A DNA stretch of 64,000 nt from Sabellastarte sp. h YS-2021 (Eukaryota > Annelida > Polychaeta > Sabellida > Sabellidae). Made by a program: the position numbers and the translations under genes. The stretch covers positions 102,380,221 to 102,444,220 of the forward strand of contig OZ024931.1 in assembly GCA_964017235.1 (NCBI GenBank), given 5' to 3'. Positions 1,086-51,340 of the stretch are shown here, piece after piece; the first letter of the stretch is position 1, and every line of letters starts with the position of its first letter. The notes beneath the pieces are model-generated. The model was not told the DNA's origin. It did not search any database and saw only the letters and a list, made by a program, of their open reading frames with translations.

Positions 1086-1089
1086 AATT

Positions 1090-1225: not shown

Positions 1226-1649
1226 AAGTAATTGGATACTTTATGTATTTGTGTGGCCACGGTTGACTATGGATGGCAAAATATAGCTAGTCGGCCACCA
1301 CTGAGCCACTGCTGGACCACTGACTGCATTTTCTAAAATATTTTTAAAGCATTATAAACTACTTCCTAGCAACCTCAAATATTGTTTTTGACATATTATT
1401 TAACAATATTCAATGTTAAAAACATATTATTTCAAAAAATAAAAATATTCCATGGCCCACCAATTACCAAAGTTAGTGGTTGTAGCTCAGGGACCAGCCT
1501 ATGCCCACTGGTGTAAAATTCTGGGAAAAATTAGATAAAATGTGCTTTTCCTTTCACTAAACATAAGTGTCATTTATATAAACAAACCTATTCTGTACTC
1601 CTTAATTTTGCTCAGTCAGTCTTTCCTCCACTTTATTACTTTATATATG

Positions 1650-2100
1650 GCTTGCTTATATATTTGCCACATTGGTCCATCAATGGCCCACCCACTACAT
1701 AAATGGGCCACTGGTTGCATATATTTTATTTTTAGTGAATGTTAAATAAAGATATCTTCATTATTTCCATTTGATATAATTTTGTGTTTTAATGCAACCT
1801 AAAATTATCCCCATTTTTTTTTATCTGACACCTGCAACTATGATCTATAAGAGCTATACTTATTGGTGGGCCAGTGTCTGCTGAACAGCATTTGTTTTGA
1901 CAGACCTTGAAAAAATAATGCCTTTCCTTAAACTCATTTGGTTTATGTGAATTACTCATTATGTGAGTTGCTGTTTTAAATTTTATTACACAAAAAAATT
2001 GTAAGATTTCCCACTGGTGGTCCACCAGTGGTATACTTTCTGCCTGAATGGTACACATACTGTTGGTCCAATGGTGGCCCACAGATGGCAAAGTAATTGG
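1650..2100 (+). repeat. Right copy of the ~0.5-kb duplicated block
   Basis: Pairs with 605-1085 at an offset of about 1.03 kb. The order of landmarks is the same: short CCATCAATGG-type words, 'tagtgaatgtta', a T-run, then 'gtggtccaccagtgg'. The interval 2100-2900 holds only AT-rich sequence with scattered words of the same type; I see no gene there. Confidence 0.65.
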
Positions 2101-2929
2101 ATATGTTATGTATGTGTGTGTATATCAATGAGGCACCGACATTTTTAAATAACAGATGTTACATCTCTGCATTGACATGATTAATATATATTTCTATTTT
2201 TCCCACTCTTGTGCCACAAATTACCATTGGGAGCCCACTAACTATATCATTGATATATAAGCTATGATCGATGGGCCACTGATGGGAATTTTCTAATTTT
2301 CACCCGGATTTTAGATCGAATCAATAAAATCATCTGAAACTTATACAGAAGAGTTAACAGAAATGAAAGTTTCCCCTGTAAACAAACCATAAATCATGTA
2401 CGGGTGAAAAATATGTTATTAAATCAAAACCATATTAATTGGGATTGAGGTGTAGCCACCACTGGACTACCCTTGGTCCACTATTACCCTTGAAATATAT
2501 TTCCCATCAGTGGCTGAATTACCCTTGCCAACAAAGGCTTGCCAACCAAAACTAGGCTGCCTAGGTTGGGCCAACAGTGGGCCAATGGTGGCTTTTTATT
2601 CAAGATGGCAGCGAGCAATAATAGGGGATTTTGAGACATTTTTAACTAACTATTTAACAATTTTAGACATAAAAATAACATTCTCATAAATTCACAATAA
2701 GAAAAGTTGTTTCTGAACATTATAATTTTCTTATTTGATTATGGAACATATCATCCTAAGATACTGTTCCACCATTGTTTATGTTTGGTCATGTTACTTA
2801 TCAGGGATTCCCTTAACTAAAATCCACTCACAATCTGTCAATTATTTGCTTTTTGTTAAACAATGGCCACATAACTTCATGCTGCAATCTGATTCGCTGA
2901 TGCCATAGTGGTAGTAAAATTTTACATGT

Positions 2930-3420
2930 GGCTTCCCAATGTCAGACTGACATAGCATCCGCTGGCCAAAAAGCCGGCAATGGCTGCCAATGTTGGACCG
3001 ACGGATATGCCAATGTTGGGCCAACGTCTGCATGCTATCTGAGTTGTTGGCTAATGAAGGTGATCCACTGGTGTACCAATAGAAAAGCTTATCATTGGCT
3101 GCCGACAGTGGGCCACTGATGGACCACCAGTAAACCTTATTGTTGGTTGCCAGCAGTGGACCACTGTCTATCAGCTGGTCACGCCACCAGAGAACCACCA
3201 TAAAAGTTGATGGCACCCAACAGTGGGCCACTAGTGGACCACCAGTCAACCTTGTTGGCTACTGAAGGTGGACCACCGGTGAACCAATAGAAAAGCTTAT
3301 CATTGGCTGCCGACAGTGGGCCACTGATGGACCACCAGTAAACCTTATTGTCGGCTGCCAATGGTGAACCACTGTCTACCAGCTGGTCACACCAAAGGGT
3401 TAGCCACCAGCTACAGCCAA
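2930..3420 (+). repeat. Tandem ~210-bp repeat rich in CCACTGATGGACCACC words
   Basis: A segment starting 'gaaaagcttatcattggct' at about 3081 recurs at about 3291 with few changes. Internally it consists of degenerate short repeats such as GGCCACTGATGGACCACC. A reverse-orientation copy of the same material is at 28.78-29.13 kb. The short open frames over this interval are repeat artefacts. Confidence 0.75.
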
Positions 3421-3469
3421 TATCGGACTGACAGCTATGCCACTGATGGGCCAGTGGTGGCCCTACCGA

Positions 3470-29135: not shown

Positions 29136-30110
29136 TAGGGTCTTGCGCTCCTGGTCAAAAGGTGACAGATAATTTAACTGAATGGACCTTAGCTGTTGTG
29201 CTGTGTCTAGCCATTCAGAGGCCAATTATGACTGGGGACTATCCGCCCGCACGCTTTTCCAACCATTTTTGAGTTTTAAAGTGATCACTGAAATAAAATA
29301 GCCTTTTAAGAAGGTGTGGGGAGGATAGCCCCCAGTAAAAACAGTAACCATGTATGCATTGGGTGTTTGTAAATAGACGTCACAATGCCATAGCTCACTA
29401 AAAAATGTGCATAGTTCTCTTGAAAATGGATTATCTTACTCGAACATTTTTGGTATAATTCTGTAAAAGTTGGATGGATGTATTTTTTTGTTTGTCCATA
29501 GAAAAAGGTATGTAATTTTCAAAAAAATTCCAGGAATTTCTGTCTGTAAATTAATGAGCAAGGATATATTTCTTGGATTTAAAATTACACTTTGCAACAG
29601 TAAGTAATAGAGTAGCATATTCTGACATATTGGGAGACCTGGGTTTGATTCCCAGTGATGTTCCTAAAAAACATTATAGCTTAGTGATAAAGCACTCAGT
29701 TTGTTGGTTATGTTACTCTTTTATTATTCTTTCAAAAGAAATAATTCATTGATTACAGGCACTAAATATGAACAGAAGCACTGTAGAAACTAGATATTGC
29801 GTCTCGACGCAGTGTATCCCCGGACGGGATGTAGTTAAGGCATGAATGTGTCGGGTTTGAGCCCGTTTCCTGGAGCACCAGGTCAGGATTCTCCAACTCC
29901 AAAAAGGCAAAAATGACCCTTGGTCAGGTATTTTGGCGGTCAGTGGATGACCTTCAGTGAAGAGCTTGAAGGTCAAATTTCTGCATGCTTACAGAGGACA
30001 TATATATGTATTATATATACCAGCCATAGGATGATGTAACTTTCTGTATATGAGAACTGGGCCAAAATGTGAAAACATGGCCAAAATCTGACCTTTAAGA
30101 GGCTACCAGT
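29136..30110. other. No gene; dispersed repeat fragment at about 29.96-30.1 kb
   Basis: Includes 'tatataccagccatagg' and 'tctgtatatgagaa', which recur at 46.97-47.02 kb. An Arg-rich frame at 29746-29976 has no recognisable domain. Confidence 0.5.
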
Positions 30111-30111
30111 C

Positions 30112-30337
30112 TGCTTTTACGAGAGCGATCATGCATTCAAAACAATATGGCGGCGTTCTTGTTCGTGTCACCTCGAAAAAATAAATAGATATTTCTTTCA
30201 ACCAGGTAGGCCGGTCTTTATAATAGTAATAAATACCTCATGCTCGGGCGTTTGTTACAGGATATACGCCCGGCAAAAATTCCTTAATAATTATTTAATA
30301 ATTTTATTTAATAATTATTTGGAATTTTTTCCGGGCG
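30112..30337 (+). mobile_element. Left part of a foldback element split by the retroelement
   Basis: Contains an outer segment (GAGAGCGATCATGCATTC), the left arm (CCGGTCTTTATAATAG ... TTTGTTACAGGATATACG), an A/T loop, and the start of the right arm ending TTTTTTCCGGGCGTA at 30337. The right arm then breaks off. Its continuation (ATATCCTGTAACAAACGCC ... TTATAAAGACCGG) is found at 40184-40241, on the far side of the 9.8-kb retroelement. A complete related foldback lies at 40.34-40.62 kb. Confidence 0.8.
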
Positions 30338-30390
30338 TAACTTAGTAACTTTGATAAACCATAGTTAAGTAACTTGTGTTGAAATTCAAG

Positions 30391-32995
30391 ATGGCTACCA
30401 AACCATTGAACGTCAATGTTGCGTCAAAGAAGGAGTTGGAGGATCTGGTTGACATTGGATCAAAGCGCATTGATCGTTGACATGAGGGAGGCAGTTGGGT
30501 CAATCAGTGAAAGTGTTTTCATGATGTTGGGCATCCCCAAGCTTGTCAAAGAGAGGATTGTCCAGCAAGGAGAACTTGTGTTTGATCCTGTTGGAAGCCC
30601 GATGAAGTCAGAAGCCATTGACTTGAAGCAGTTTTGTCAGACGATGACCGGGGCATTTGACTCTGTCAGAGCTGAAATCCAACAACTTAGTGGGAAAGTT
30701 TCTGGAGAAATTCAATCCATTAAGGATGATGTGTCCGGTATTCATGGCCGAATAGACCAAATGGCTGATGAATTTGATGATATCAAGAAGGACGTCAGTG
30801 ACTTAAGAACGAAGGTCGAGCGAAGGTCGTCAGGCTCAAGTAGGTCAAGTAGTGGATCCGACAAAGAAAAACAACATGTTGTGAAGTCAAAAATAACAAG
30901 TCCTGGACAAGAACGTTTTCCAGATCAGATGAAGCAGGAAGATAGGAAGCAAGCAGCATTGGATCAGCTTGAAGAATCCTACGAGCAAGCACGGCAGCTG
31001 AAACAGGATAGATCGAATTTTGAGCGTGAATATCTTGCAAAATCAGAAAGGTGCCGATCCGACATAGTGCAGACAGACATCGACAAACGTAACCTGATTT
31101 CGCAATACAAAAGTTATCAGGGGGAAAGTAAAGTGAGGATGTTGTCACTTAATGAAAAGACAAATGCTGTGGTACGGAAAATCAACCAAGGTGCAACTGA
31201 ACTCAAGCAGAAGTTTGGTGTGACTTACCCGTTTGAGTCAGAGGTAGATGAACCAGAGTGGACGGGATTGGATTTGAGCTTGCGTCAGGCCCACAACCCT
31301 GATTGACATCTGTTAGATTCCCCTGTTCCACAGATACTTCCCAGGTATCATTACCCCCAATCTACCCCTTTCCCTTCCAAGTCTGCAGGACAAAGACCAC
31401 AGTCTCCCCCTTTCCCACCTAAGTCTGTGCATTATGGACAGTCGTCGCAGCTTAGAGGTGCGCCACAAGATCAACCTTGTGACCCTCAACCTAAGTCCAT
31501 GACACAGTCAAGACCTCCACAGTCATACAGCAAAAAGTCACGGGAATTGTATCATCCACTCGCCTTTCGCAACACTTCACAGCAGGAAAACAGGGATACA
31601 ATTCAGCCACGACAATCAGTTGATCATAATCGGCCTCAAGTTGTCATGCCCTAACTCAGTCCAGTTAAAGGTGACTTTGAAACCATGATGAGAGAGGTGA
31701 TAAAAGAGGAACTGAAGAAGACCATGGAGCCCTTGGGGAGTGCAAATCATTCATCAAGGAGTGCCCGGAGGAGAAGAAATAGGTCTTACAAATACAGCAA
31801 TTCATCAAATTCAACAAACTCAGATGATGAAAATAGTTTTAGACTGAATACCAGAAATAACCGTTCCGTTGCAAAATTTTCCAGGATGCAAGTTCCAAAG
31901 ATGTCCTTCTCTGGTGAAGGCTGGCGAGGATTCATCTCCCAGTTTGAGACCGTAGCTGACCGTTGCAGATGGTCTGAGCGAGAGAAATTGGACAACTTCT
32001 CCATGTGTTTGAAGAAAGATGCGGCAGAGTATTACAGCGTCTTGCCGGAGCGGAACGAAATGAATTTCTTGGAAATGAAAAAGAGGTTCGAGGGGTTCTT
32101 TGACAAAACTGAACCTGCATCTGCCATTCGTTGGGACATACTCAACATTGAACAGAGAGAAGACGAACCACTTGAGAAGTATTTAGCCCGACTTCAAGGA
32201 ATGATCATGAGAGCATATCCGGGTTCCAGCCCAAGTGAACAAGATAACACCCTGTTCATTGAGGTCTTCCTGAAGGGATGCCGAGAGAAAGGAGCTGTAC
32301 TTGCCATTTGTGACAAGAAGCCGACAAGCCTGGAGGAAGCCTACAAGTTTGTGCAATCAGCTTCACAGTACAGAAGAGCAGTGTTGGGCAAGAAAGGTCA
32401 AAACAAGAAGGTGCATTTCATCCAAACTGCTGACAAGTCGAGTAACAGCAACAGTGATGAGCTGGATACTACTACGGAGGAAAAACCTCTGGTGCGCAGT
32501 ATTCAGAATAAATCGAGACCACCAACAACCAAACCACAGCAGGAGCACTCATCTGTTGAAACAGAAATGCGGGAGCTGAAAACCTTGTTTGGGAAAATGT
32601 TGAACTTGTTACAAAATCCACCAAATCAGGGTTATAGGTCGCCACCCAGAAACCAAGGTTGTTTTGAATGTGGATCTCCGAGTCATTTTGTTAAACAGTG
32701 TCCTAGACGGCGAGGATCACCAAATTCAAGCCCTAGGAGGGGTGATGACCGCAATTGGAGATCGCGAGGCGACAGTCAAGGTGCATCTAATCCAAACTGG
32801 AGGCAGAAAGATCAGGGGTCAAGGTCGCCACCATCCCAGTCCTGGAGGTCACGTGAGCAGGATTACCAGTCACCACCACCAGCGACTAGTAGGCAGAAGC
32901 TATCCCCGGAGCGTGCTAATCAGGAGTGGAAGATTGGGACACCACTGCAGGGGCAGCCTGGAGATAGTCAAGTTAAGTTTAATTTAAACTATTAG
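30391..32995 (+). pseudogene. gag: Retroelement gag, interrupted by one frameshift and two stops
   Basis: Starts ATG at 30391. The first 29 codons read LNVNVASKKELEDLVDIGSKRI, the first helix-hairpin-helix of a ComEA-type DNA-binding domain. A frameshift near 30470 (stop TGA 30478-30480) moves the reading to the next frame, where the second HhH follows (IVDMREAVGS ... LGIPKLVKERIV). A long coiled coil with Ser- and Lys/Glu-rich stretches follows, to a TGA at 31304-31306. A Pro/Gln/Ser-rich linker continues in the same frame to a TAA at 31652-31654. The last part, intact from 31685, has a capsid-like helical region and a CCHC zinc knuckle (Cys326, Cys329, His334, Cys339 counted from 31685), then a basic tail. 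Because all three open segments share one frame and read as continuous protein, I interpret them as one ~870-residue gag, now broken. Alternatively the stops are read through. Confidence 0.8.
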
Positions 32996-33028
32996 ACCGG
33001 GACGGGCGAATTCCCAATGATCTGGCCC
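32983..33028 (+). promoter_or_regulatory. -1 programmed ribosomal frameshift signal, gag to pol
   Basis: The heptamer T TTA AAC lies at 32983-32989, correctly phased in gag (AAT TTA AAC), six bases before the end of the gag stop TAG (32993-32995). Slipping back one base enters the pol frame, which is open from exactly 32983. Nine bases downstream, GGGA (32999-33002) can pair with TCCC (33012-33015). GGGC (33004-33007) in the loop can pair with GCCC (33025-33028), a compact H-type pseudoknot. The pairing is by inspection only. Confidence 0.8.
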
Positions 33029-36000
33029 AACATAATAGTTTAGATTCATTAGTTAAGACAGTTACCAAGCATGTTCATAAATGTAGTAAAGGAGTCAGTT
33101 TTGCATGTCAACAATTGTGTCAAGAGAACCAAAATAATTTGAGTGCCTTAATTCCGTGTTCATTAAATGGAATACAGGTGAATGCCTTATTAGATACCGG
33201 TTCAGAAGTAACTGTAGTAAACTTTGATGTGTATAACAAATTGATTCCAAAACCTTGTTTGAAAGAAAAGGTGAGGTTAAATGGTATTTGTAGAGAAGTA
33301 GATGTTGACGCTTGGTTACTTGAGGGAATTGAAATAACTTTTGGTCAAACAAAAAACTTTTGGAATGTTTATGTAGCACAGATAGCTGAACCCCTTATCA
33401 TTGGGATTGATTTTTTGTGCCATTTTGGAGCAAAATTAGATTTTCGAAACTACATATTCACATTGAATGATGAGAAGAAAGGGATTCACTTGTTCAAAAC
33501 AGAATCAGGAGATAGTTTTGAAGTTTGCCCTGTAACTATAGATAAGAAGACTGTTATTCCTCCTAATAGCGTAGTTAGAACTTTAGTTAAGTCTTCTTTA
33601 CTAAATGAAACCTATGCTATACATTCAGTCAACAGTCAGGGGTTGCTGATACCGAACACTGTGGTCACCGGTGGAGGCACACATGTTCCGGTACAACTGG
33701 TGAATGATCAGAACAGGTATGTGAGATTGAAAAAAGGTCATGTCATTGGGCATGCTATTCAATGTGATGTGGTGCCAGAGGTTATAGACACCGATTCGTC
33801 ATTCAAGGTGAGGTCAATAACAGATAAGCCACCATCCCAACAAGTAGATGAATTACCAGAACATTTGTCAGGTTTGTTCAGTCGTTCTGTTAACAACTTA
33901 GACAGTTCAGAACAGAAACAGTTGAAGACACTTTTGTTAGAATTTCAACATATTTTCTCTAAAGATTTGGGTTGTTTCTCTGAAATTAAACATAAAATTA
34001 ATACTGGAGATGAAAGACCGGTAAAACAACCAATGCGTAGGACACCAATCGGTTTTGAAAAGGAGGAGGAAGAGAATTTGAAATTAATGTTAGAAACAGG
34101 AGTTATTTCCGAATCATCCTCAGACTGGGCATCAGCTCCAGTGTTAGTGCGGAAAAAAGATGGGAGTGTGAGATATTGCGTTGATTTCCGATGTCTTAAT
34201 GATAAAACGGTTAAGGACTTATTTCCATTGCCGTCAATATCTCAATGTTTAGACCAACTTTCTGGAAACATGTATTTCTCCACATTAGACATGGCTTCCG
34301 GATACTGGCAGATAGAAATTGATGAACAGGATAGGCATAAGACAGCATTTATTACCAAGTTTGGGTTGTTTGAACACCGAAGAATGGCCTTTGGTTTATG
34401 CAACGCCCCAGCTACTTTTCAAAGAGTAATCCAACTGATCCTGAGGGGATTAACCTGGGATAAAATACTGGCCTATCTTGATGATGTAATTGTGCTGGGT
34501 AAAAACTTTCAAGATCATATAAAAAATCTCCGCACTACTTTTGAAAGATTTGCGAAATATAACCTTAAGCTTAAACCTAAGAAATGTGTCTTGTTCCAGA
34601 CTGAAACCACGTTTCTGGGTAGGATAGTCAGCTCAGAGGGAGTAGGTGTAAATCCAAACAACATCGAGAAAGTCAAAAACTGGCCTATTCCGAAATCAGT
34701 AAAAGATGTTGAAAAATTCTTGGGTTTTCTAAATTACCACAGGGAACACATCAGGGATTATGCTAAGATAACGTCAGTGTTGTATGAGTTGACAGGTAGC
34801 AAAGCCATTTTCAACTGGCAGGGGAAGCATCAGGAAGCTTTCGAGGATTTGATTGGAAAGTTGACAACAGCACCAGTTCTAGCTTATCCAAATTCAGATG
34901 ACATGTTTATTTTAGACACAGATGCTTCGGACCATTCTATTGGAGCTGTACTTTCCCAAGTTCAAGACGGTACAGAGCGAGTCATAAGCTATGGGAGTTT
35001 TGTGCTTACACCCGAGCAGAGGAAGTACTGTGTAACTAGGAAGGAGTTGTTAGCTGTTGTGAGGTTTACTAGACAGTATAGACACTATCTACTTGGTAGG
35101 AAATTCCTAGTAAGGACAGATCACAATAGTTTAACTTGGCTCTTAAGATTCAAGTATATAGAAGGTCAACTGGCTAGGTGGCTAGAGGAACTAAGTCAAT
35201 TTGATATGACTGTAATCCATCGTCCTGGAGTGAGGCACGGTAATGCAGATGCATTGTCACGTGTAACAGATGATATACCATTTTGTGATTGTTACAGAGC
35301 TGGTTCCGATCCGAATTCACTACCTTGTGCTGGTTGTAAGTATTGTCTCAGAGCACACAATCAGTGGTCCAGATTCAGTCAGGAAGTTGATGACGTTGTT
35401 CCTCTCGCGGTTAGGACAGTAAACTTAGTGAAACCGGTGAGTAGATCAGTACCTTGGATAACTGGTTACACTACAAGTGAGATGAGTGAGATTCAATCTT
35501 CTGATCCATGTTTAGGTAAACTAATTGCATGGATATTGAGTGAGAAGGAGCCTGAACAAAGGGAGTTATACCTGAGTAGTCCAGCCGTTAAACATTTTTA
35601 TATTTGTAGGAAGCAATTACTTTATAAAGATGGGTTGTTGTATTATAAGTGGAAGGAAGAAGCTGGTGCCAGATTATTACTCATGGTTGCTGATAAGCTT
35701 AAACAAGAGGTTATGTCCCTTAATCATGACATACCACTTTCTGGCCATATGGGAATAGCTAAAACCTTAGCTAGAGTGAAGCAATCTTTTATGTGGTATA
35801 ATCTGAGGAAGGATGTGGAACTGTTTGTGAAGTCTTGTTCCGAGTGTAATAAGAATAAGAAGGCAAATGTTAAGGCAAAAGCTGCGTTAGGCCAATTTCA
35901 TGCAGGTTCGCCATTGGAGAGGGTTCATATTGATATACTAGGACCATTTACGCCAAGTTCCAAAGGTAATCAGTATGTACTTATGATTGTGGATCAGTTT

Positions 36001-37047
36001 ACTAAATGGTTGGAATGTTTTCCTCTTCCACATCAATCAGCAGAAGAAGTAGCCAGATGTGTAGTTGATGGTTTCATTTCCAGATTTGGATGTCCATTGG
36101 AGATACACACCGATCAAGGTAAAAACTTTGATGGTAACCTGTTTGCTTCTGTTTGTGAGTTATTGCATATTGTCAAAAAGAGGACGACACCATACAGACC
36201 TTGTTCAAATGGTCAAGTGGAGAGGTATAACCGAACATTGCTACAGTTAATCAGATGTTTTTTAGAAGGTAATCATCATGCTTGGGATGAGTATCTTCCA
36301 CAGCTAGCTGGAGCAATAAGGTCCACCATTAATCGAAATACTGGTTTTACTCCAAATTTGATGATGCTAGGTCGTGAGGTTATCCTGCCTGTCAATCTAA
36401 TGATCGGCATTACCGAAGAAGGTGAGAATAAAACTCCTGCCGAGTATGTATTAAAGTTGAGAACTATTTTGAATAAAGTTCATACTTTAGCAAGAGAAAA
36501 TCTAGTGTCAACACAAATGAGACAGAAGAAAGACTATGACCTGAGGCTGAAGGAGAACACATATGAAGTAGGTGACTTGGTTTATTTATTAGATTCTGCC
36601 CGGAAGATTGGACAAAGTAGCAAATTGCAGCAGATATGGAAGGGCCCGATGTTGGTGACTAAAGTGGTAACACCAATCCTTTTTGAGGTTACGGGAAAGA
36701 AGAAGCCAGTCATCATACATCATGATAGGTTAAAACCCTGTTGTGATCGAAACATCCCCATATGGTTGCTTCGTAAGAGGAATCAGCTATTAGGTAATCA
36801 ATCTGAACTTTGTGAGAACACTTCAATTTGCCAGGGAGATGATGATCTGAATCTTAGTCACTTATTTGAAGTGAACTGTCAGGATACAGCTGATTCAGGT
36901 ATGGAAGCTAATGATTCTTTAGTTTTGGAAGAAGAGTTAAAAATAAATACAACAGATGAAGGTAACCAAGAAGTAAGCAAACCCTCAGTAACGAGAGCCG
37001 GCCGGGAAAGCAGGAGGCCCAGACACCTGGTAGATTACTATAGTTAA
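32983..37047 (+). CDS. pol: Retroelement Pol polyprotein (protease, RT, RNase H, integrase)
   Basis: Open from the frameshift site to TAA at 37045-37047. No ATG is needed because it is made as a Gag-Pol fusion. Numbering from the TTG at 33115: aspartic protease LLDTGS (Asp27); reverse transcriptase with LDMASGYWQ and YLDD (454-457); RNase H with DTDAS (Asp603) and the conserved HNSLTWL stretch; integrase zinc finger His871/His878/Cys908/Cys911; integrase catalytic core Asp940, Asp1000 (HTDQG) and Glu1036 (GQVERYNR). After it comes a GPY/F-like module (W-K-G-P) and a Ser/Glu-rich tail. No stop or frameshift interrupts about 4 kb, so the enzyme set looks intact. Length and order are typical of Ty3/gypsy. 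It copies the RNA to cDNA in the particle and inserts it into the genome. Gag upstream is broken, so the copy would need help in trans. Confidence 0.92.
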   Translation, partial: FKLLDRDGRIPNDLAQHNSLDSLVKTVTKHVHKCSKGVSFACQQLCQENQNNLSALIPCSLNGIQVNALLDTGSEVTVVNFDVYNKLIPKPCLKEKVRLNGICREVDVDAWLLEGIEITFGQTKNFWNVYVAQIAEPLIIGIDFLCHFGAKLDFRNYIFTLNDEKKGIHLFKTESGDSFEVCPVTIDKKTVIPPNSVVRTLVKSSLLNETYAIHSVNSQGLLIPNTVVTGGGTHVPVQLVNDQNRYVRLKKGHVIGHAIQCDVVPEVIDTDSSFKVRSITDKPPSQQVDELPEHLSGLFSRSVNNLDSSEQKQLKTLLLEFQHIFSKDLGCFSEIKHKINTGDERPVKQPMRRTPIGFEKEEEENLKLMLETGVISESSSDWASAPVLVRKKDGSVRYCVDFRCLNDKTVKDLFPLPSISQCLDQLSGNMYFSTLDMASGYWQIEIDEQDRHKTAFITKFGLFEHRRMAFGLCNAPATFQRVIQLILRGLTWDKILAYLDDVIVLGKNFQDHIKNLRTTFERFAKYNLKLKPKKCVLFQTETTFLGRIVSSEGVGVNPNNIEKVKNWPIPKSVKDVEKFLGFLNYHREHIRDYAKITSVLYELTGSKAIFNWQGKHQEAFEDLIGKLTTAPVLAYPNSDDMFILDTDASDHSIGAVLSQVQDGTERVISYGSFVLTPEQRKYCVTRKELLAVVRFTRQYRHYLLGRKFLVRTDHNSLTWLLRFKYIEGQLARWLEELSQFDMTVIHRPGVRHGNADALSRVTDDIPFCDCYRAGSDPNSLPCAGCKYCLRAHNQWSRFSQEVDDVVPLAVRTVNLVKPVSRSVPWITGYTTSEMSEIQSSDPCLGKLIAWILSEKEPEQRELYLSSPAVKHFYICRKQLLYKDGLLYYKWKEEAGARLLLMVADKLKQEVMSLNHDIPLSGHMGIAKTLARVKQSFMWYNLRKDVELFVKSCSECNKNKKANVKAKAALGQFHAGSPLERVHIDILGPFTPSSKGNQYVLMIVDQFTKWLECFPLPHQSAEEVARCVVDGFISRFGCPLEIHTDQGKNFDGNLFASVCELLHIVKKRTTPYRPCSNGQVERYNRTLLQLIRCFLEGNHHAWDEYLPQLAGAIRSTINRNTGFTPNLMMLGREVILPVNLMIGITEEGENKTPAEYVLKLRTILNKVHTLARENLVSTQMRQKKDYDLRLKENTYEVGDLVYLLDSARKIGQSSKLQQIWKGPMLVTKVVTPILFEVTGKKKPVIIHHDRLKPCCDRNIPIWLLRKRNQLLGNQSELCENTSICQGDDDLNLSHLFEVNCQDTADSGMEANDSLVLEEELKINTTDEGNQEVSKPSVTRAGRESRRPRHLVDYYS

Positions 37048-37139
37048 GGTAGTTAAGTGTCTTGTTACCAAAGTTGGCATGGCTTACCAGGTGAAGTTTA
37101 CGAGTTACTAATCAACTATAGCTCTCACGTTTTGGGGAC

Positions 37140-37164
37140 TTACACGGTTGTTTCCTTCTTGTAG
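37140..37164 (+). promoter_or_regulatory. Probable 3' splice site just before ORF4
   Basis: A pyrimidine-rich tract (GTTTCCTTCTTGTAG, ending 37164) directly abuts the ORF4 ATG at 37165. A strong donor-like CTG|GTGAGT occurs at about 40169 in the 3' LTR-like region. If the LTR carries it, a 5' LTR would place it upstream of gag. This arrangement matches subgenomic env-type splicing, but transcript data are needed. Confidence 0.5.
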
Positions 37165-37770
37165 ATGGATCGAGGTAGGTCATCCTACCGAGGGAGGAGG
37201 TCCCGAGACAGGGATCGGGAGAGGAGGCCAGAGTATCACCCACGTAGGAGTCCCACCACCGATTTCTACGGGAGACCTGGTCATCAGGGAGGCGACCGAG
37301 ACAGGAGTCGTCCAAGTTACCACCAGGGAGGAGGGTTACGTCGTTACGATGATAGACCTCGCTCTCAAAGGCCATATGACCATGACAGCTATGGCAGAAG
37401 GCATGAACGCAGAAGTCATGACACTGATTTCGCTTCACACGACCGCTACAGACGTGATCCTCAACAATGCACCACCCAGGAAGAGGATGAATCCGTCACA
37501 ATTATACTGATGGATATATACAGTGAACTCAGGGTAGAGGTCATAAGGGCAAGTGTCAATCACCCTGAAAACCGCAGGAGGCCTTTTGATAAGGGGATTC
37601 TACTCCAGCGATGTTTAGAGGATTTACGCGGTCTTTCTACGTGGCGACGTACAAGCCGGCCGGGGCCATCTGCTGCGTTAGGGGCACCCCCGCGGGAACC
37701 AAGTACCAGTGAAGCTCCTACAGCAAGTACTGCAAGTGTGTCTGCTCCAAAGCTTACAGAAAAGATATAA
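37165..37770 (+). CDS. Retroelement ORF4: Arg/Ser/Asp-rich basic protein
   Basis: 201 residues. The first ~100 are dominated by Arg, Asp, Ser, Tyr, Gly and His in RD, RS and RGRR repeats, like SR/RD-type RNA-binding regions. A short ordered-looking segment follows (SVTIILMDIYSELRVEVIRA), then a Pro/Ala/Ser/Thr-rich tail. No transmembrane segment or signal peptide, so it is not an envelope protein. It begins right after a strong 3' splice-site-like sequence and overlaps the open frame leading into ORF5 (open from 37713 in the -1 frame). Role unknown; RNA or nucleic-acid binding is an inference from composition. ORF4 and ORF5 might be joined by splicing or frameshifting, but I see no canonical slippery heptamer in the overlap. 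Confidence 0.65.
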   Translation: MDRGRSSYRGRRSRDRDRERRPEYHPRRSPTTDFYGRPGHQGGDRDRSRPSYHQGGGLRRYDDRPRSQRPYDHDSYGRRHERRSHDTDFASHDRYRRDPQQCTTQEEDESVTIILMDIYSELRVEVIRASVNHPENRRRPFDKGILLQRCLEDLRGLSTWRRTSRPGPSAALGAPPREPSTSEAPTASTASVSAPKLTEKI

Positions 37771-39740
37771 GGAAGGGTAGACCCAGCAGGGAAAGTGAGC
37801 CTGTCGAGCCATCCAAGAAACGAAGGAGGGTAACCCCTAAGATGAAGTGTTTCATGACTGGCTGCGACGCCATGAACAAGCATATGAAAAAGCATGTGAT
37901 TGGTAAACATCTGCCCACCGAGGCCTACAGTAAAACCGGGGATTTACCCCTGGGTGCTCGCATGCGAATCTTGGAAGACTTGCTGAACAAAATAGCTCAC
38001 CACCTGGGTTGTGAGGATTTGAAGGCGTTACTCCAGAAGGTGTTGTCCCTGAAATTCTATCCAACCACGGATAAAACTTACGAGGTGACAGAGCCTGATA
38101 TTGAAATGATGAACCAGTTCCACCATTGGTTGTATTCAGAAAATCTGCCAAGGACACCATCAATCAGTCCACCTAATCTTGTAGCCTCTCTGGTACAGTG
38201 GAGAGCCTTGGCTCATCTCATCAATTGTATAGGAGAGAGCAAGTTCAATGTCAAACGTGTAAAGATAGACAAGGTGCGTGTTACAAGGGACATTGTACCA
38301 GCCAGCGTAGACAATTCGGACGTTCAAGTAGAATTGACCAGTGACCAGACGGATCAGGCAAAATCAAAGGAGAAGTCAAGTGAAAAACAGACCCACAAGA
38401 AGTCTGTTAAACAGAATCTGGACAAAGCGAACACAGCGGAGTCTGTACCAAAATTCAGGCCACTATCTGTTGTTGTCGCCGAATCGTTAAAACAAGCTTC
38501 AGCAGGAAAGGTTCCACAGGGAAAAGCCTCATCTGAGAAGAAAGCAAAAGAAGTTGAAAGTAGTGAGTTTGTAGTTGTGGACAGTCTTTCCCCAGACAGG
38601 GGGGACGAGATGGAAATAGATCGGGAAGAAGTTATCTCAGAAAGGGAGGAAAGGCAAGAGGAGATTACAGAGTCTGTGGGATCTGGAGAAATGGAAACAA
38701 ACAAACCAGTGGAGACAAAGGAGTCAACCTCTTCTGCCACAAGGAGTTATGCCGCAGTAGTGAAATCAGGTCCAGCAGTGCCCTCACAGGTAAAGAAAGT
38801 GAAACCAATGCCACTGGGCATTCCCTATCCACAAGAAGAACGGGAATTGAGGTTAGTGCGTTTGGTGAGGAATTCACAGAGGATACCGTTTGTGGATTCT
38901 CACTTCCACCTTGATCGTGTGCAGCAGCAAAGTAGAATGGAGGATCTGGAGGAGATACTGGCCAATGGGCCAATCCCACAAACCCCCATGAAATTGGAAG
39001 CTGCAATAGCCAACTTCATTGACGGCGTTCCATCAAGGAATGTGAGGCGAGCTTTGTCCAAGGATCGACGATTGTTTTTTACCTTCGGGGTGCACCCAAA
39101 GCGTGCTCACAGAGTAACCCCTGAAGAATTGAAAGCTGTCAAAGAAGTCGTTCTGAAGGAACCAAAGTGTGTGGGAATCGGCAAGATGGGTTACGACCTG
39201 ACTGATGGTTGTAGCGTACATCTAGACAAGCAGATGAAAGTGTTCAAAGAACAGCTGAGGCATTACGCCAACAAAGAGTTGTGGTCAACTGTCATGGTTA
39301 TTCACTGCCGAGACAGTATGGATTCCAGGAAGGCCACAGAGTTATGTTTGGACACCATGGGTAGTCAGCTATTCTCTAAACACCGTGGTTCTTATAGAAT
39401 TCATGTTCATTGCTTCAACGGGGGAATAAAAGAAAAGGACGCCTGGTTGGCTCAATATCCGACAGCCATGTTTGGGTTCACTGGACTGTTGTTAACAAGT
39501 GAGCGTCATCCTGAATTGGAAGAAGTGGTACGATCTTTAGAGCCAACCAAGATTCTTCTGGAGTCAGACTCCCCTCATTTACTCCCCCCAGCATTTAAAA
39601 CCGAAAAGTTCAACACTCCTTACGGAATTGATGAAGTAGCTCGCAGGATAGCTTTTTTGCGTGGAAAAACCGTCAGGGAGATCTTGGATCTCTGCTCCTT
39701 CAACGCGAAAAGGCTCTACGGGAAAATACAGATTCTGTAG
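37713..39740 (+). CDS. Retroelement ORF5: protein with C-terminal TatD-family nuclease domain
   Basis: First ATG is at 37842 (632 residues), but the frame is open from 37713 and the upstream part reads as protein (CVCSKAYRKDIRKGRPSRES, then a KKRRR nuclear-signal-like patch). Residues 1-30 contain CFMTGC and HMKKHVIGKH, a possible C2H2-like zinc finger. A helical segment, then a long acidic Ser/Lys/Glu-rich linker (about 160-310), leads to a TatD-type TIM-barrel domain (about 345-630). Visible motifs: DSHFH (His354, His356), TFGVHPKRAH, GIGKMGYD, VIHCRDS (His488), HVHCFNGG (His523), LLESDSPHLL (Asp576), and the C-terminal NAKRLYG. In TatD enzymes these are metal ligands of a Mg/Zn-dependent 3'-5' exonuclease acting on ssDNA/RNA. 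The usual Glu of GEIGLD is Lys448 here, so activity may be altered. It occupies the env position; I infer a role in cDNA processing or host interaction, untested. Confidence 0.88.
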   Translation, partial: SSYSKYCKCVCSKAYRKDIRKGRPSRESEPVEPSKKRRRVTPKMKCFMTGCDAMNKHMKKHVIGKHLPTEAYSKTGDLPLGARMRILEDLLNKIAHHLGCEDLKALLQKVLSLKFYPTTDKTYEVTEPDIEMMNQFHHWLYSENLPRTPSISPPNLVASLVQWRALAHLINCIGESKFNVKRVKIDKVRVTRDIVPASVDNSDVQVELTSDQTDQAKSKEKSSEKQTHKKSVKQNLDKANTAESVPKFRPLSVVVAESLKQASAGKVPQGKASSEKKAKEVESSEFVVVDSLSPDRGDEMEIDREEVISEREERQEEITESVGSGEMETNKPVETKESTSSATRSYAAVVKSGPAVPSQVKKVKPMPLGIPYPQEERELRLVRLVRNSQRIPFVDSHFHLDRVQQQSRMEDLEEILANGPIPQTPMKLEAAIANFIDGVPSRNVRRALSKDRRLFFTFGVHPKRAHRVTPEELKAVKEVVLKEPKCVGIGKMGYDLTDGCSVHLDKQMKVFKEQLRHYANKELWSTVMVIHCRDSMDSRKATELCLDTMGSQLFSKHRGSYRIHVHCFNGGIKEKDAWLAQYPTAMFGFTGLLLTSERHPELEEVVRSLEPTKILLESDSPHLLPPAFKTEKFNTPYGIDEVARRIAFLRGKTVREILDLCSFNAKRLYGKIQIL

Positions 39741-40183
39741 GAGGGAAAATATTCAGCAGGCGGTCTACCACTTGCTGAATATGACCTAGAAGGTGGGCCG
39801 GGAGGCGAAGACACTGCCATGAGCGTGACAAGTGCCGACAATGTGTTTGTCATGACACCAAGCTTCTCGTTGAGGAGGAGAGTGTAGTGAATCGCGGGCG
39901 GAGACGATCTCGCCGTTAGAATAGCCACTTGCAAACGCGAATATAAAAGGTGAAGGTCGTCGTGACAACGAGAGATCCAATAGCCGTATCGAGAGATATA
40001 GTTTAAAATGCCGCCATATTACAAAGACAATGTAGTTACAGAGGAATATTAAAGGGACAGATAATTGTGTAGAAAAGAAACATATAAAGAGAAAGACATT
40101 TATAAAGGACGTTTGTATCATCAGTGTACCACCAAGTGTCCAGAGAAGTGGGATGCTGCAAACAGTAACTGGTGAGTTACAAC
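39739..40183 (+). promoter_or_regulatory. 3' LTR-like region: polypurine tract, hairpin, TATA box, splice donor
   Basis: The stop codon of ORF5 overlaps AGGAGGGAAAA (39739-39749), a polypurine-tract candidate. It is followed by a hairpin with ATATTCAGCA / TGCTGAATAT arms (39749-39783), TATAAAAGG at 39942-39950, and a strong donor CTGGTGAGT near 40169. These are the parts expected of an LTR with its promoter. However, no second copy lies 5' of gag, so LTR identity is unproven. Confidence 0.5.
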
Positions 40184-40241
40184 AATATCCTGTAACAAAC
40201 GCCCTCACAATCAGTATTTATTACTACATTATAAAGACCGG
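40184..40241 (+). mobile_element. Right arm of the split foldback element
   Basis: Begins ATATCCTGTAACAAACGCC and ends TTATAAAGACCGG. It is the missing continuation of the arm interrupted at 30337; the shared AAAGACCGG/CCGGTCTTT tip, absent from the other copy, ties it to the 30.1-kb half. Confidence 0.8.
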
Positions 40242-40339
40242 AAGTGCGCAGTGAACGAAAATCTGTCTGTGCGCATAGAATTAGCACGGAAACGGAAGTG
40301 TTGTTTCGATTGCTCGATTGTGTGTCGGTAGTAAGATTG

Positions 40340-40625
40340 TCTACTTTTACGAGAGCGATCATGCATTCAAAACAATATGGCGGCGTCCTTGTTCGTTTCA
40401 CTTCATCAAAATAAAGGCATGTTTCTTGAAACCAGATAGGCCGATCTTTATAATAGTAATAAATACCTCATGCTCGGGCATTTGTTACAGGATATACGCC
40501 CGGCAAAAATTCTTTAATAATGCCCTCGCGCCTAACGGCGCTCTGGCATTATTTGGAATTTTTTCCGGGCGTATATCCTGTAACAAACGCCCTCACACTC
40601 AGTATTTATTACTACATTCTAACAT
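40340..40625 (+). mobile_element. Complete foldback element, second copy
   Basis: Same outer segment (GAGAGCGATCATGCATTC) and arms as the split copy. The left arm runs from about 40450 and the right arm to about 40615, around a loop with CGCCTAACGGCGCTC. Identity to the 30.1-kb copy is high by eye, except in the loop. Confidence 0.8.
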
Positions 40626-40825
40626 GACACGCTTGTGTCCGCGATTCTGATTGGTCCATTCCAGTTGTAAAACCGAGCATAACCCCACGGCCAGTTTTTC
40701 ATGAGTGGGCGATAATCCCGCTTCACTTTTTAAAAGTCAAATTACAAAGAGTATGCACTACATATCTTCATCAAAACAGTAAGAAGACAAGGAATAAATG
40801 TCAAAAATGAAATGTCATGTTAAAA

Positions 40826-41229: not shown

Positions 41230-42050
41230 TTCAAAATGGCCGCCATTTTTGTGGAGGTGAAAACTTTTTAAAAATTGGCAAGAGTAGAATTCTCAGATAC
41301 CCTGTGGGTCGAAAATTTTGCCGAAATCGCTCTATCTCGCACAGTTAAGGAGATAGAAGCAAATTAGTGTTTTGCCATTTTTGGCAAAAATTCGAAAATT
41401 AAAAATGGCCGCCATTTTTGGGGAGGGGAAATTTTTTTAAAAATTACCAAGAGTACAATGCTGAGATACCCTGTGGGTCGAAAATTTTGACGAAATCACT
41501 CTATCTCGCACGGTTAAGGAGATAGAACCAAATTTGTGTTTTGCATTTTTGGCAAAAATTCGAAAATTCAAAATGGCCGCCATTTTTGGGGAAGGGAAAA
41601 TTTTTTGAAAATTGCAAAGATTGCATTCCTTAGATACCCTGTGGGTCGAAAATTTCGACGAAATCGCTCTATCTCGCACGGTTAAGGAGATAGAAGCAAA
41701 TTTGTGTTTTGCCATTTTTGGCCAAAATTCGAAAATTCAAAATTGCCGCCATTTTTGGGGAGGGGAAAATTTTTGGAAAATTGTATAGATTGCATTCCTT
41801 AGATACCCTGTGGGTCGAAAATTTTGCCGAAATCGCTCTATCTCGCACGGTTAAGGAGATAGAAGCAAATTTGTGTTTTGCCATTTTTGGCAAAAATTCG
41901 AAAATTCAAAATGGCCGCCATTTTTGGGGAGGGGAAATTTTTTTTTAAAATTACCAAGAGTACAATGCTCAGATACCCTGTGGGTCGAAAATTCTGTCGA
42001 AATCGCTCTATCTCTTACGGTTTCTGAGATATTAGCAAATTACTCAAAAG
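41230..42050 (+). repeat. ~169-bp satellite, five units
   Basis: Units start near 41232, 41402, 41570, 41739 and 41908, giving periods of 168-170 bp. Each has AAAATGGCCGCCATTTTTGG (or TTGCCGCC), GATACCCTGTGGGTCGAAAA and CTCTATCTCGCACGGTTAAG. Frames on both strands at 41437-41948 are repeat artefacts. The repeat resembles AT-rich 'sensitivity-to-divergence' satellites common in molluscs. Confidence 0.9.
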
Positions 42051-43755: not shown

Positions 43756-44610
43756 AAAAATAGCATCGGAGATGGTCGTATCCCAGAATCTGGAGAAATA
43801 GTTTTCAATAGTATGAGCTATAGAACCTAACAACAGTCCCTACCAAGTGTCTTACAGAATCCAAGGAATAGCCTGGACAAGATTTTAAAACTCATGGTCA
43901 CTATGACAAGGTCAAAGCTCAAATCAAGATTGATGTGTCACACCTACAACCTCCAAGCAGTGTCCCTACCAAGCATCTACCTCCTACACTTAATGCTTTC
44001 AGAGATATTGGCTGGACAAAATTTTAAAGGTCAAGGTCTCTACGGTAAGATCAAAAGTCAAAAACAAGGTCACGGCATGACATTGCAAAGCTACAACTCC
44101 CAACCAATGACCATACCAAGTATTACTTTCTACATTTAACATTTTCCGAGATCTGGGATGGATAACATTTTAAAGGTCAAGGCCACTACAGCGATGTCAA
44201 AGGTCAAATCAAAAACAAACCATGACGTTGCACACATACACCCCCTAACCCATGTCCCTACCAAGTGTCAACTTCATGAACCTTTCGGTTTCCAAGATAT
44301 AGCCTGGACAAGATTTTAAAGGTCAAGGTCACTACGACAAGGTAAAATCAAAGTCACACCATGATGTTGCACACCTACATCTCCTAACCAATGTCCCTAC
44401 CAAGTATCAACTTGCTACACCTGATGGTTTCTGAGATATAGTACAGACAAGATTTTTTAACCCAAGGTCACTACGGCAAGGTCAAATCAAGGTCAGACCA
44501 TGACGCTGCACACCTACACCTCCTAACCAATGTCCCTACCAAGTATCAACTTCCTACACCTAACAGTTTCTGAGGTACAGCCCGGACAAACTTTTTCTCG
44601 CCACCCACCA
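43756..44610 (+). repeat. Dispersed repeat start plus ~143-bp satellite, five units
   Basis: 43756-43830 matches the beginning of the dispersed repeat at 23005. From about 43870 the same satellite as at 23.5 kb follows, with 'accaagtatcaac' landmarks near 43968, 44112, 44258, 44399 and 44539 (spacing 140-146 bp). The layout, flank then tandem core, resembles pearl/CvA-type helentron-like elements of bivalves; this assignment is inference. Confidence 0.8.
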
Positions 44611-44929
44611 ACCTGGATGCCTGCCCATCCAGACAGCATGGGTGAAAACAATACTCCGACAGCCTTTAAGGACTGTGGGGTAAAAACACCAGGCTTACAC
44701 ATGCCAATCTCTAAAGATATTTACAGATCTCAGTGACCAATTCAGTTTACTTTTTTCCATTATATTTGGAGACAGACAATTGGTGGAAATGATGCTAAGT
44801 CTTGGCACAGAAAATCAAACTAAAAATTTTGTCAACCACATCAACAAGAAAAAGTAAGTGTCAAAGAACCCACAATTTAGAATAAAAAGTGTGCATCATT
44901 TCAGTGTCACCAACAATAACTCTAAACTT

Positions 44930-47329: not shown

Positions 47330-48480
47330 ACCATTGCTTGACCTCGAAGGAGGGGCCAAAGGCAAAATCTAACATCAGAAAATTCCTAGCCCAAGATTTC
47401 GTTTCAGTTGGTTTTGTAGTGTAAACCTCTAGGACCAATAACAAGCAAGTTATAAGCACTTTTAAGTTTGGCTATCCTCATTTGACTTTGAAGGAGGGGC
47501 CCAAGGTCAAATCCGACCACACCAAAAGATTCCCAGCTCATGATTTCCTATAGGTTGGTTTACCATTCCAAACCTCTAGGTCCAATAATAAGCGAGTTTT
47601 AAGCACTTTTAAGTTTGGCTATCCTCGTTTGACCTTAAACAAGGGGCCCAAGGAAAAATCCGACCACACAAAAAGAACCCCTGCCCATGATTTCCTATAG
47701 GTTGGTTTACCATCCCAAACCTCTAGGACCAATAATAATTGAGTTTTAAGTACTTTTAACCTTGACTATCTTCATTTGACTTCGAAGGAGGGGCCCAAGG
47801 TCAAATCCGACCACACCAAAAGATTCCCAGCCCATGATTTTGTGTATGTTGGTTTACCATCCCAAAACTCTAGGACCAATAATAAGCGAGTTATAAGCCC
47901 TTTTAAGTTTGGCTGTCCTCATTTGACCTTGAAGGAGGGGCCCAAGGTCAAATCCGAGCACACCAGAAGATTCCCAACCAATAATTTCCTATATGTTGGT
48001 TTACTATCCCAAAAGTCTATGACCAATAATAAGTGAGTTATAAGCACTTTTAAGTTTGGCTATCCTCGTTTAACCTTGAACGAAGGGTCTAAGGTCAAAT
48101 CCAACCACACCAAAAAATCCCAGCCCAGGATTTCCTATATGTTGGTTTACCATCCCAAACATCTAGGAGCAATAATAAATGACTTATCAGCAATTTTAAG
48201 TTTGGCTATCCTGGTTTGACCTTTAAGGAGGAGCCCAAGGTCAAATTTGACCACACAAAAAGATTCCCAGCCAATGAGTTTCTATAGGTTGGTTTACCAC
48301 CCCAAAACTGTAGGACCAATAATAAGCGAGTTGTAAGCACCTTTAGGTTTGGCTATCCTCGTTTGACCTTGAGGGAGGGGTCCCCTAGGTCAAATCCAGC
48401 ACATGATTTGGCATTAGGTTGGTTTCACATTGCAAACCTCTAGGACCAATAATAAGGGATATAGGCACTTTTAAAGTCCA
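47330..48480 (+). repeat. ~147-bp satellite, about eight units
   Basis: CTTTTAAGTTTGGCTATCCTC-type landmarks lie near 47459, 47608, 47756, 47901, 48048, 48194 and 48341. Units contain GGGGCCCAAGGTCAAATCC and GGTTTACCATCCC. The frame 47776-48036 is a repeat artefact. Confidence 0.9.
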
Positions 48481-49204: not shown

Positions 49205-49420
49205 TTAAATTGCAAATTTAATAAGTAAATAAAATTTTTATAAGTTAATACCCTATCGAATGGACAATTGCTAATCCGGTCGACGCAGACCAGCCCACCA
49301 AACGACAGAAAAAGTCACCTTATATGAGTGCACAATGCCCTCACAAGCTGGCCGGTCCCATTGTGCACTCGCCAGGTGGCGCATCGTACTTCTTTCCTGT
49401 CCAGACAGCATGATGTATAT
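49205..49420 (-). mobile_element. DIRS terminal repeat block, copy 2 (reverse)
   Basis: Reverse complement of the blocks at 4.44 and 55.73 kb: 'ttaataccctatcgaatgg', GACGCAGACCAGCCCACCAAA, CACTCGCCAGGTGGCGC, CTGTCCAGACAGC. It lies between two RT fragments. Confidence 0.8.
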
Positions 49421-49990
49421 ATAATGGCTGGCCTGTGAGTACATTCTTTTCTTCTAGCCACCACTGTAGATGTGGGTGCAAGGACCTGGGAAGTGGGATT
49501 ATCTTCTCTAGAGATTCTGGTATTCTCCAATTGTTTTTCAAATGCCATTGAATTGGCCTCATGTGGAGGCGGCCTAGGTGAACTTGTTTCTCTGTGGCAG
49601 TTAACAAACCTATCAAGGACATGAACTCCCGGACCGGACAGGTCGGTAGGGATAGTATTCCCAGTAGGGATAGTATTCCCAGGACCAACGGTCCGGTGTA
49701 GGTCGGACCCGACCGGACTGAAGGTCGAACTGATAACCTACAAAGTCGAAGACCTGTTTCGGTTCCAGTTCTGATTTCTCTAAATTTACCAGCCATCCTA
49801 GGTCTTGGCATATCTGAACTAAGAGCTGGGTATGTTGGAGACAGACCTGGTGGGACGTGGCTCTCACCAACCAGTCGTCTAGGTATTGGTGGATCCTTAT
49901 ACCCTTGTAGATGGCCATCAGTTTCACCTCTTTTGCTACCACAGTGAACTCCAGGGTGCTGTGGACAAACCGAATGGCAGTGTCTTGAAT
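49420..49990 (-). pseudogene. DIRS RT core to RNase H start fragment
   Basis: The minus strand encodes EFTVVAKEVKLMA, HQYLDDWLVRA (RT active site), LEPKQVFDFVGYQFDL, then after a frame change FMSLIGLLTATEKQVHLG and HMRPIQWHLKN. It covers roughly residues 310-490 of the intact RT ORF. The small internal tandem duplication 'gggatagtattcccag' near 49651-49681 interrupts it. Confidence 0.85.
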
Positions 49991-50039
49991 TGGTATGTCA
50001 TGCTGAAAACATTATTTTCATTCTAAGCCTGTGTAGCTG

Positions 50040-50285
50040 CGAAAGTTGCTAATCCTTCAGGCTATGGTCGAATGTCATCATCCGGTTATCCGGAGACATA
50101 CCGTCAGAGTCGACCTTGTCCCCCCCCCCTCTTTTCCTAAGAACCGATCTGGTCTGAGGCAGGGAGAGAGGGATGAGTTCAGTCCCATAGATCTAACCCT
50201 TCCCGAGGAAGTACGTTCCAGATTTTTTTTTTTTTTTACTTAAATATCCTAAAATATATACACATATGTACAATATAAATCCCCT
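50040..50285 (-). mobile_element. 3' non-coding region of the intact DIRS element
   Basis: Follows the recombinase stop on the minus strand. It begins with 'tatattgtacatatg', has an A-run (T-run 50223-50238 on the plus strand), then a part that matches the 3' region of the relic at 4.08-4.3 kb. No complete 3' terminal repeat is seen before the RT relic at 49990, so the 3' end appears lost or replaced. Confidence 0.6.
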
Positions 50286-51340
50286 CTAACTGCTGGTCTG
50301 TTGGTGGATTTGCTGAGCAGCCACAACTGGACCAAGATGATAAAGCTCCGAGTCAGCCCAAGCCACATCCTTCAGGTAAAATTGAGTGAAGGTGTTATGA
50401 GACTTCCAGTGGCAGGCTGACAAGATTTGTTCTAAGGACATGCCCGAATGGAAAGCCCTAGAAGCAGCAAAGGCCCTGACATCATGGGCTTTAACCTGAT
50501 GCAAGCTGTGGGCCTGGTGATCAGAGAGCTCATAGCACAGGATCACAGTCTGTTTAATCCAAGAGGAGATAGTGGCAGGTGAGATGTCCATGTCGAAACC
50601 TTTCTTAAAGGAGATAAAGACCAATTCTTTATCCTGCCTGAGGGCTGAAGTCCTGTCCAAGTAGTAACGTAAGGCTCTGATTGGACAAAGGGATCTGTCA
50701 GCCTTGAGAGACCTATCCAGAGTAGGAGCCAGGGCTGGTATGACCACTGGGGCTACACTCTCTGGACCTTCTTTAGCCAGCTGGTTCTTGGAGAGAAAAC
50801 TGGGAGCTGGGTACAGGGACACCTTGGACCAATCGGATTGGTGTCTGATGTTTCTATGCTGCCATGCATGGATCTCACTTCTTCTTTTGCCCGAACCCAG
50901 GGCTAAAAGGAAAACAGTTTTGAATGTCAAGTGTTTCAGAGATGCTTCTCTAAGGGGCTCAAAGGGAGCTTTCGTCAGTTGGTGCAGCACCAGGGATAGG
51001 TTCCAGGAAGGTATACCCCTCCTCCCTTTGGGTCTGTCTCTGTGGAAACTGTCCAGGAGACGAGTGAGATTATCGTCCTTACTGATGTTGACTATTGCAG
51101 TACCCAGTTTGTCGGCGATGGCAGACCGGTATCCATCGATGGTACTAGGCTGCAACTTCTTGTCCTCGAAGAGGAATAGAAGGAAATCAGCAACAGACTT
51201 CACAGGTGGTGAGGTGAAGTCCACCTGATTAGAGACGCACCACTTTGTAAAAACGGCCCACTTTGCTTCATAGACAGCTCTGGTTGATTTCCTTTGAGGA
51301 GCTTCAATTCTCGCTGCCACTGCTTTAGAGAAGCCGGTTT
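50286..51340 (-). CDS. DIRS tyrosine recombinase (integrase) ORF
   Basis: The frame runs open from 53477, but residues before about 715 are a shadow of the RT frame; the recombinase proper starts near 51340. Numbered in that frame: SAM-like N-terminal domain (AVYEAKWAVFTKW ... STIDGYRSAIADKLG), catalytic Arg865/866 (GKRRSEIHAW), His998-x-x-Arg1001 (AHDVRAF), His1023 (CHWKSH) and Tyr1034 (FTQFYLKD). The five-residue Arg-His-Arg-His-Tyr set is complete, so the copy looks catalytically competent. DIRS-order elements use this enzyme instead of a DDE integrase, recombining a circular cDNA into the genome without target duplication. It overlaps the end of the RT ORF (51200) in another frame, so translation needs frameshift, reinitiation or splicing. 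Confidence 0.9.

Follow-up and report, generated by a model that had tools for sequence, protein, structure and literature searches.

Here we report that a clade of long terminal repeat (LTR) retrotransposons of the Ty3/gypsy type in the polychaete Sabellastarte sp. h YS-2021 carries a third gene, ORF3 (ORF for open reading frame), which occupies the place of env and codes for a protein ending in a TatD nuclease domain. The starting point was a stretch of 64,000 nucleotides (contig OZ024931.1, positions 102,380,221 to 102,444,220 of the forward strand; from here on the window), in which a sequence-only reading had seen a 632-residue ORF with five TatD motifs directly downstream of the pol gene of a gypsy-type element. 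The ORF was found at the place described, behind a pol ORF of 1310 amino acids, and all five motifs are in its translation (Table 1). ORF3 is a gene of the element, with its TatD domain kept by purifying selection; we think it somewhat more probable than its opposite that the protein is a TATDN2-like nuclease which works in the nucleus on intermediates of the element's own replication. New with respect to the sequence-only reading are a longer, multi-domain ORF3, its presence in many lineages, recombination at the TatD end and the broken state of the window copy.

That TatD belongs to the element follows from its linkage to pol. A search of the genome with window positions 38862-39737 as query (134 of 785 first-look candidates scored) gave a list of 135 TatD matches, 107 of them free of stops as counted by eye; a search with the reverse transcriptase (RT) domain of the window gave 150 listed matches out of 22,427 candidates. 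In the 10-kb stretches read, all 20 fetched copies of the family had element sequence directly 5' of TatD, and 17 of them had pol there, in some cases broken or partial; in L020, L021 and L026 TatD directly follows ORF1 or gag of its own element, which makes them internal deletion copies. Counted without hand selection, 74 of the 135 listed TatD matches are preceded on their strand, at 2.5-7.5 kb, by an RT match, the distances between the 135 TatD and the 150 RT matches concentrate at 4.5-5.5 kb, and among these matches not one pair on opposite strands was found within 12 kb.

With three further searches added, 104 of the 150 listed RT matches are followed on their own strand, at 2.5-7.5 kb, by TatD or ORF3 (109 at 1.5-10.5 kb), as are, within 10.5 kb, 37 of the 41 pol frames of at least 1340 amino acids among the matches listed. 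About 0.05 pairs were expected by chance; within 10.5 kb the enlarged set held one opposite-strand pair and four pairs in reversed order. The enlarged sets were partly picked by hand (85 new rows from the first extra search, 51 of 84 from the second, then 15 of 72 from the third plus eight from the second), some rows being chosen for their nearness to unpaired RTs, and each pair still needs a listed match. The 41 RTs left unpaired among the matches listed neither prove nor exclude elements lacking TatD. TatD standing only as lone host genes, which the sequence-only reading had named as the sign of a chance neighbourhood, is not what the genome holds: TatD was repeatedly linked to pol.

A few arrangements stand apart. 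Three TatD matches (G000 C2:147841175, C8:37313353 and C6:104215524) have a common open frame of 1239 amino acids, with gag instead of pol upstream of the first (L130); perhaps these are a derivative without pol in which gag is fused to ORF3 and which spread in this form. Other TatD matches lie in regular arrays, five at a spacing of about 4 kb (G000 C2:3520142-3536350) and four at about 26 kb (C19:30984941-31064358). A subfamily without pol, considered when L031 was found to lack most of it, was rejected, pol being present in all ten sister C2 stretches (L119 with an internal pol deletion).

The 632-residue ORF is real, and it is a truncated part of a longer gene. ORF3 is a single frame in five copies (965 amino acids in L010, L011 and L012, 966 in L016 and 977 in L015), which takes in the sequence that the window has as a separate ORF of 201 amino acids; judged by the spacing in other copies, about 325 bp are missing in the window between the two pieces. 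Across lineages ORF3 ranges from 680 to about 1025 amino acids and consists of an N-module, a C2H2-like zinc finger, a helical block, a variable linker and a C-terminal TatD domain of group II. The TatD_DNase model (PF01026) covers residues 351-627 of the window ORF with 130.6 bits (cut-off 27), and phmmer returned 11 distinct PDB sequences at E <=0.01, all annotated as enzymes, known or putative, of the TatD family. The motif DSHFH is the HxH motif that in the accessible parts of PMC10085689 marks TatD group II, together with TATDN2, TATDN3, YjjV and YcfH, and several hundred residues of N-terminal extension lie in front of it.

The zinc finger had been read as possible only. Its residues C3, C8, H18 and H23 are near-invariant in an alignment of 16 proteins; Pfam gave no model at E up to 1 for the finger and helical block or for the N-terminal piece. 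Immediately N-terminal of the finger there is a basic cluster in lineages A, C1 and C2, which is absent in C3 (four lineages scanned whole). TatD_DNase was the sole Pfam match of ORF3; neither a fusion protein nor a DEDDy exonuclease domain was found, and in the same four lineages no membrane span, the highest hydropathy over 19 residues being 1.12-1.27.

The class of the element is given by its pol, in which the order protease, RT, RNase H, integrase fits the Ty3/gypsy type; Pfam recognised RVT_1, RNase H, H2C2 and rve, with the protease matches below the cut-offs. In the window Retrotrans_gag is above cut-off and the zinc knuckle of gag below it; in L031 the knuckle is above cut-off. The relative L020 has an LTR pair of 299 bp (98.3% identical) with ATAT on either side, a candidate target-site duplication, and TGG one base after the LTR, a candidate for the start of the transfer RNA primer site. 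In the related element L031 (positions 317-3469), we also observed at the N-terminus of Gag a stretch resembling a helix-hairpin-helix (HHH_3, 21.9 bits with a cut-off of 27), which is unusual for Gag.

The copy in the window looks dead: it has no 5' LTR, a broken gag (a single frame of 869 amino acids in L009 and L016, both of the fetched copies that cover gag), a truncated ORF3 and a lysine in place of a metal-binding glutamate. Most of the leader is also missing, homology to other copies beginning where the element starts in Table 1. This lysine is residue 448, at which all 15 remaining rows of alignment A1 show glutamate as part of a GxGExG motif; GIGEMG is present in 16 of the 20 family copies, and the other four gave no match to this pattern. 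As read from the GE motif, the position would correspond to Glu112 of TATDN1, which contacts both metal ions and whose alanine form lost most of its activity (PMC10085689, accessible parts). The metal-site motifs are intact in lineages L029-L032 and in most family copies, and not in the window copy. A direct repeat at 30109 and 40339 was considered as the LTRs and rejected, as other copies match only from 30346 to 40184, and the repeat is thus flanking DNA. As a separate observation, 30109-30345 and 40185-40640 show that the element lies within a repeat having direct and inverted copies, and the left flank joins the truncated element directly, as if the 5' part had been lost exactly at the junction.

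Table 1. Features of the element copy in the window (positions in the window)
Feature	Position	Strand	Evidence
LTR retroelement copy, 5'-truncated	30346..40184	+	homology to other copies begins at 30346 and stops at the 3' LTR end
gag, first piece (frame broken)	30416..31306	+	ORF; comparison with other copies
gag, second piece	31685..32995	+	Pfam: Retrotrans_gag above cut-off, CCHC knuckle below cut-off
pol: protease-like, RT, RNase H, integrase	33115..37047	+	Pfam
ORF3 N-terminal piece: Arg-rich start and conserved N-module	37165..37770	+	alignment with other copies and lineages
ORF3 C-terminal piece (632-aa ORF)	37842..39740	+	ORF, Pfam
C2H2-like zinc finger, residues 3-23 of the ORF3 piece	37848..37910	+	alignment
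TatD domain, residues 351-627	38892..39722	+	Pfam
Codon 448, lysine at metal-binding glutamate position	39183..39185	+	alignment A1, motif scan, TATDN1 paper
Purine-rich stretch adjoining the 3' LTR, putative polypurine tract	39874..39882	+	read from sequence
3' LTR, TGTAGTG...ACAACA	39883..40184	+	comparison with other copies

Other features were noted in the window. On the minus strand (49341-55625) lies a second, unrelated retroelement with an 812-amino-acid ORF (51200-53638) that has RVT_1 and RNase H-like matches; the ORFs of 1063 and 713 amino acids overlapping or neighbouring it gave no Pfam match. Tandem repeats are found at 41230-42035 (unit of about 168 bp), 43826-44616 (139-146 bp) and 47372-47959 (147 bp).

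The sequence-only reading had supposed that the element keeps its nuclease, and the substitution rates show that the domain is indeed kept. Between L010 and six A2 copies (L018, L019, L020, L024, L026, L027) the TatD domain has 0.37-0.40 synonymous changes per site (dS) and 0.022-0.037 nonsynonymous ones (dN), corresponding to a dN/dS of 0.06-0.10 (Fisher p 1.8e-22 to 7e-27 for the six pairs). In the linker preceding TatD, dN/dS is 0.27-0.33 in the five of the six A2 copies that keep it, and in L018 the contrast between TatD and linker has a p of 4.7e-5. Close copies differ by few changes, nonsynonymous ones outnumbering synonymous ones in L016 (3 versus 0) and L017 (6 versus 2), as would be expected of decaying copies. 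To judge by this purifying selection, TatD is a working gene of the element and no passenger, and because selection has kept the sequence of the enzyme, the elements probably need it.

The same copies indicate recombination. Compared with L010, the A2 copies are about 95-99.7% identical in the pol and finger bins and 86-92% in the bins from linker through TatD, with a second dip (90-95%) in the N-terminal part of ORF3; by these dips parts of ORF3, above all the TatD end, were exchanged between lineages, TatD moving between subfamilies as a module. Compared with the window, L013, L014, L017, L021 and L025 are 98.9-99.5% identical in TatD but only 87-89% in the stretch of 3' untranslated region and LTR.

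Seven lineages were named by their TatD: A (the window), B (L029), C1 (L030), C2 (L031), C3 (L032), C4 (P0005-like) and D (L134). Between lineages the synonymous sites are saturated, and TatD identity is 44-68%. L030, L032 and L031 have pol or its remains 5' of ORF3, L031 being a pol deletion copy and L032 having about 3.4 kb between pol and recognisable ORF3. In the 6 kb read of L029 there was no pol, but lineage B also includes three copies with a paired RT. For other families, ten stretches upstream were read; pol was present in seven, gag in one, the N-terminal part of ORF3 only in one and nothing recognised in L127. The group with frames of 680-682 amino acids, the most distant of the lineages and sampled once (L134), has integrase and the end of pol directly 5' of a 680-amino-acid ORF with finger and TatD, which compared with family A are 62% (integrase stretch) and 32% (TatD) identical. 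The aligned ORF3 proteins of A, C1, C2, C3 and D have one plan: N-module, finger (C-x4-C...H-x4-H), helical block with PP/PPN...WR, variable linker and TatD.

In a TatD tree of 58 rows (11 fragments or near-duplicates left out; quick method without bootstrap; 13 prokaryote loci as outgroup) the element TatDs form one clade (13 rows, seven from this genome; the tree predates L134) with a support of 100 in the approximate likelihood ratio test (SH-aLRT). The label 'ZnF-TatD' in the tree was assigned by us, the finger being seen in alignment only for rows of the 16-protein alignment. In prokaryote genomes the best 80 of 533 loci are 24-31% identical to the query, and the search of viral contigs for other hosts gave one locus of 23% identity. 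P0005 and P0056 were rejected as evidence from other species, being 99% and 91% identical to copies in this genome, and P0002, P0004 and P0009, which look like families of this genome, were not counted as independent. Another match is in a record filed under Thiodiazotropha (P0012), which we take to be a clam symbiont.

The order finger, helical block, TatD is the same in a pearl-oyster protein, a Pinctada imbricata protein (P0028) being among the protein matches, and in a protein of the sea urchin Diadema antillarum (P0058), known from the protein alone. From this shared order we put forward, tentatively and as a doubtful extension, that ORF3 with TatD is a core gene, and not cargo, of an old animal Ty3/gypsy clade with a reach across phyla, a second nuclease beside RNase H that is reshuffled as a module and may be the source or a close relative of host TATDN2-like genes.

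Enzymes in the env position are already known. The LTR elements Vesta and Juno of bdelloid rotifers have gag, pol and, in the place of env, a nuclease ORF3, which is of the DEDDy-exonuclease type where ours is TatD; GDSL esterases are known as well, and the rotifer ORF3 types are shared between retroelements (PMC5408684; this and the following papers are cited from the parts of their text that were accessible, and the word TatD is absent from PMC5408684). The intragenomic variation of the rotifer ORF3 looked neutral (PMC5408684), whereas TatD here is under purifying selection. An orchid Gypsy likewise has an added enzyme ORF (PMC9289625); it differs in being a plant element with an AlkB-type N6-methyladenosine RNA demethylase that was assayed, ours being a prediction from sequence. 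The giant gypsy-like Burro of planarians, also an animal element with extra domains, has MATH/TRAF, BCL-2, dUTPase-like and env-like regions, and the paper on it contains no word beginning with TatD or nuclease (PMC6431247). In three papers on transposable elements (PMC8220671, PMC8905726, PMC10294476) no word beginning with TatD was found in the main text, and the literature searched, with most subscription papers and preprints outside it, reports no TatD gene in a retroelement.

How might the enzyme serve the element? The protein would act in the nucleus, where finger and helical block may bind nucleic acid or the integration complex and the TatD domain would cut structured intermediates of element replication. 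Candidate substrates are RNA left in cDNA/RNA hybrids, 3' flaps and single-stranded ends at integration junctions. The nuclease would work like host TATDN2, which is described as an RNase that recognises structure and can resolve R-loops in vitro (PMC12709183, citing its reference 36), and might complement the RNase H of pol. In both proteins a long extension stands N-terminal of a TatD domain with the HxH motif; that of TATDN2 often has a nuclear signal (PMC12709183, PMC10085689), and that of ORF3 has the basic cluster in three of the four lineages scanned whole. Unlike ORF3, TATDN2 is a host gene, and the likeness is one of description, not of a comparison of finger, N-module and helical block.

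Several points weigh against this proposal. What ORF3 has in common with TATDN2 is the HxH motif and the N-terminal extension, and the likeness does not come from a tree that includes TATDN2; nuclease activity, expression and nuclear location of ORF3 are predicted; and all six A1/A2 comparisons run across a single internal branch. The biochemistry reported for TATDN1 and TATDN3 is that of a 3' exonuclease and apurinic/apyrimidinic (AP) endonuclease on DNA (PMC10085689), which makes an RNA or hybrid substrate a guess. Moreover, A and C1 are 48% identical in TatD versus 87% in RT, which would fit an arms race too.

The much faster divergence of TatD than of RT between lineages makes counter-defence the main rival explanation, in which the nuclease would attack an anti-transposon molecule or structure of the host such as small-RNA precursors, silencing-linked R-loops or sensed cytosolic DNA. 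Conflict genes are often fast-diverging and swapped, and TatD is swapped between subfamilies. We nevertheless consider this reading unlikely: the dN/dS of TatD in family A is that of a constrained enzyme with no signature of positive selection, and the host target is only hypothetical. A little less probable still is that ORF3 is a repair helper, mending the cDNA or the site of integration where these are damaged or gapped, for instance as AP endonuclease or by 3' clean-up; this is hard to separate from an action on replication intermediates, and the element has no repair partner gene.

That related elements captured a host TATDN2-like gene repeatedly, instead of gaining it once long ago, we regard as improbable. 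It would account for the three paired B copies, whose RT is 94-95% and whose TatD is 64-66% identical to that of the window, and for the integrase and TatD distances, which among six lineages correlate with r 0.94 (15 pairs) but without D with r 0.20 (10 pairs), so that the parallel between the two rests on D. Against it are N-module, finger and helical block, common to the five aligned lineages, and the single clade of the element TatDs; the mosaics are accounted for by exchange between elements, with no need of new captures. Finally, a passenger or chance neighbour with no role in the element, to which the broken window copy and the excess of nonsynonymous changes in L016 and L017 might point, is already contradicted by the genome-wide linkage of TatD and RT and by purifying selection, and has hardly any probability left.

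To our knowledge, LTR elements seldom acquire an enzyme beyond gag-pol and retain it. The findings suggest that among the genes predicted as TATDN2-like in animal genomes some belong to elements. One such case may be found in the paper on the giant squid genome (PMC6962438, accessible part), where the legend to a figure carries the label TATDN2. The strong selection that maintains a repair-type nuclease, with its multi-domain plan fixed, in many lineages of a single genome suggests that such a nuclease serves some step in the replication of LTR elements or in their conflict with the host, and the lineages are natural variants with which the substrates of TATDN2-type enzymes may be found.
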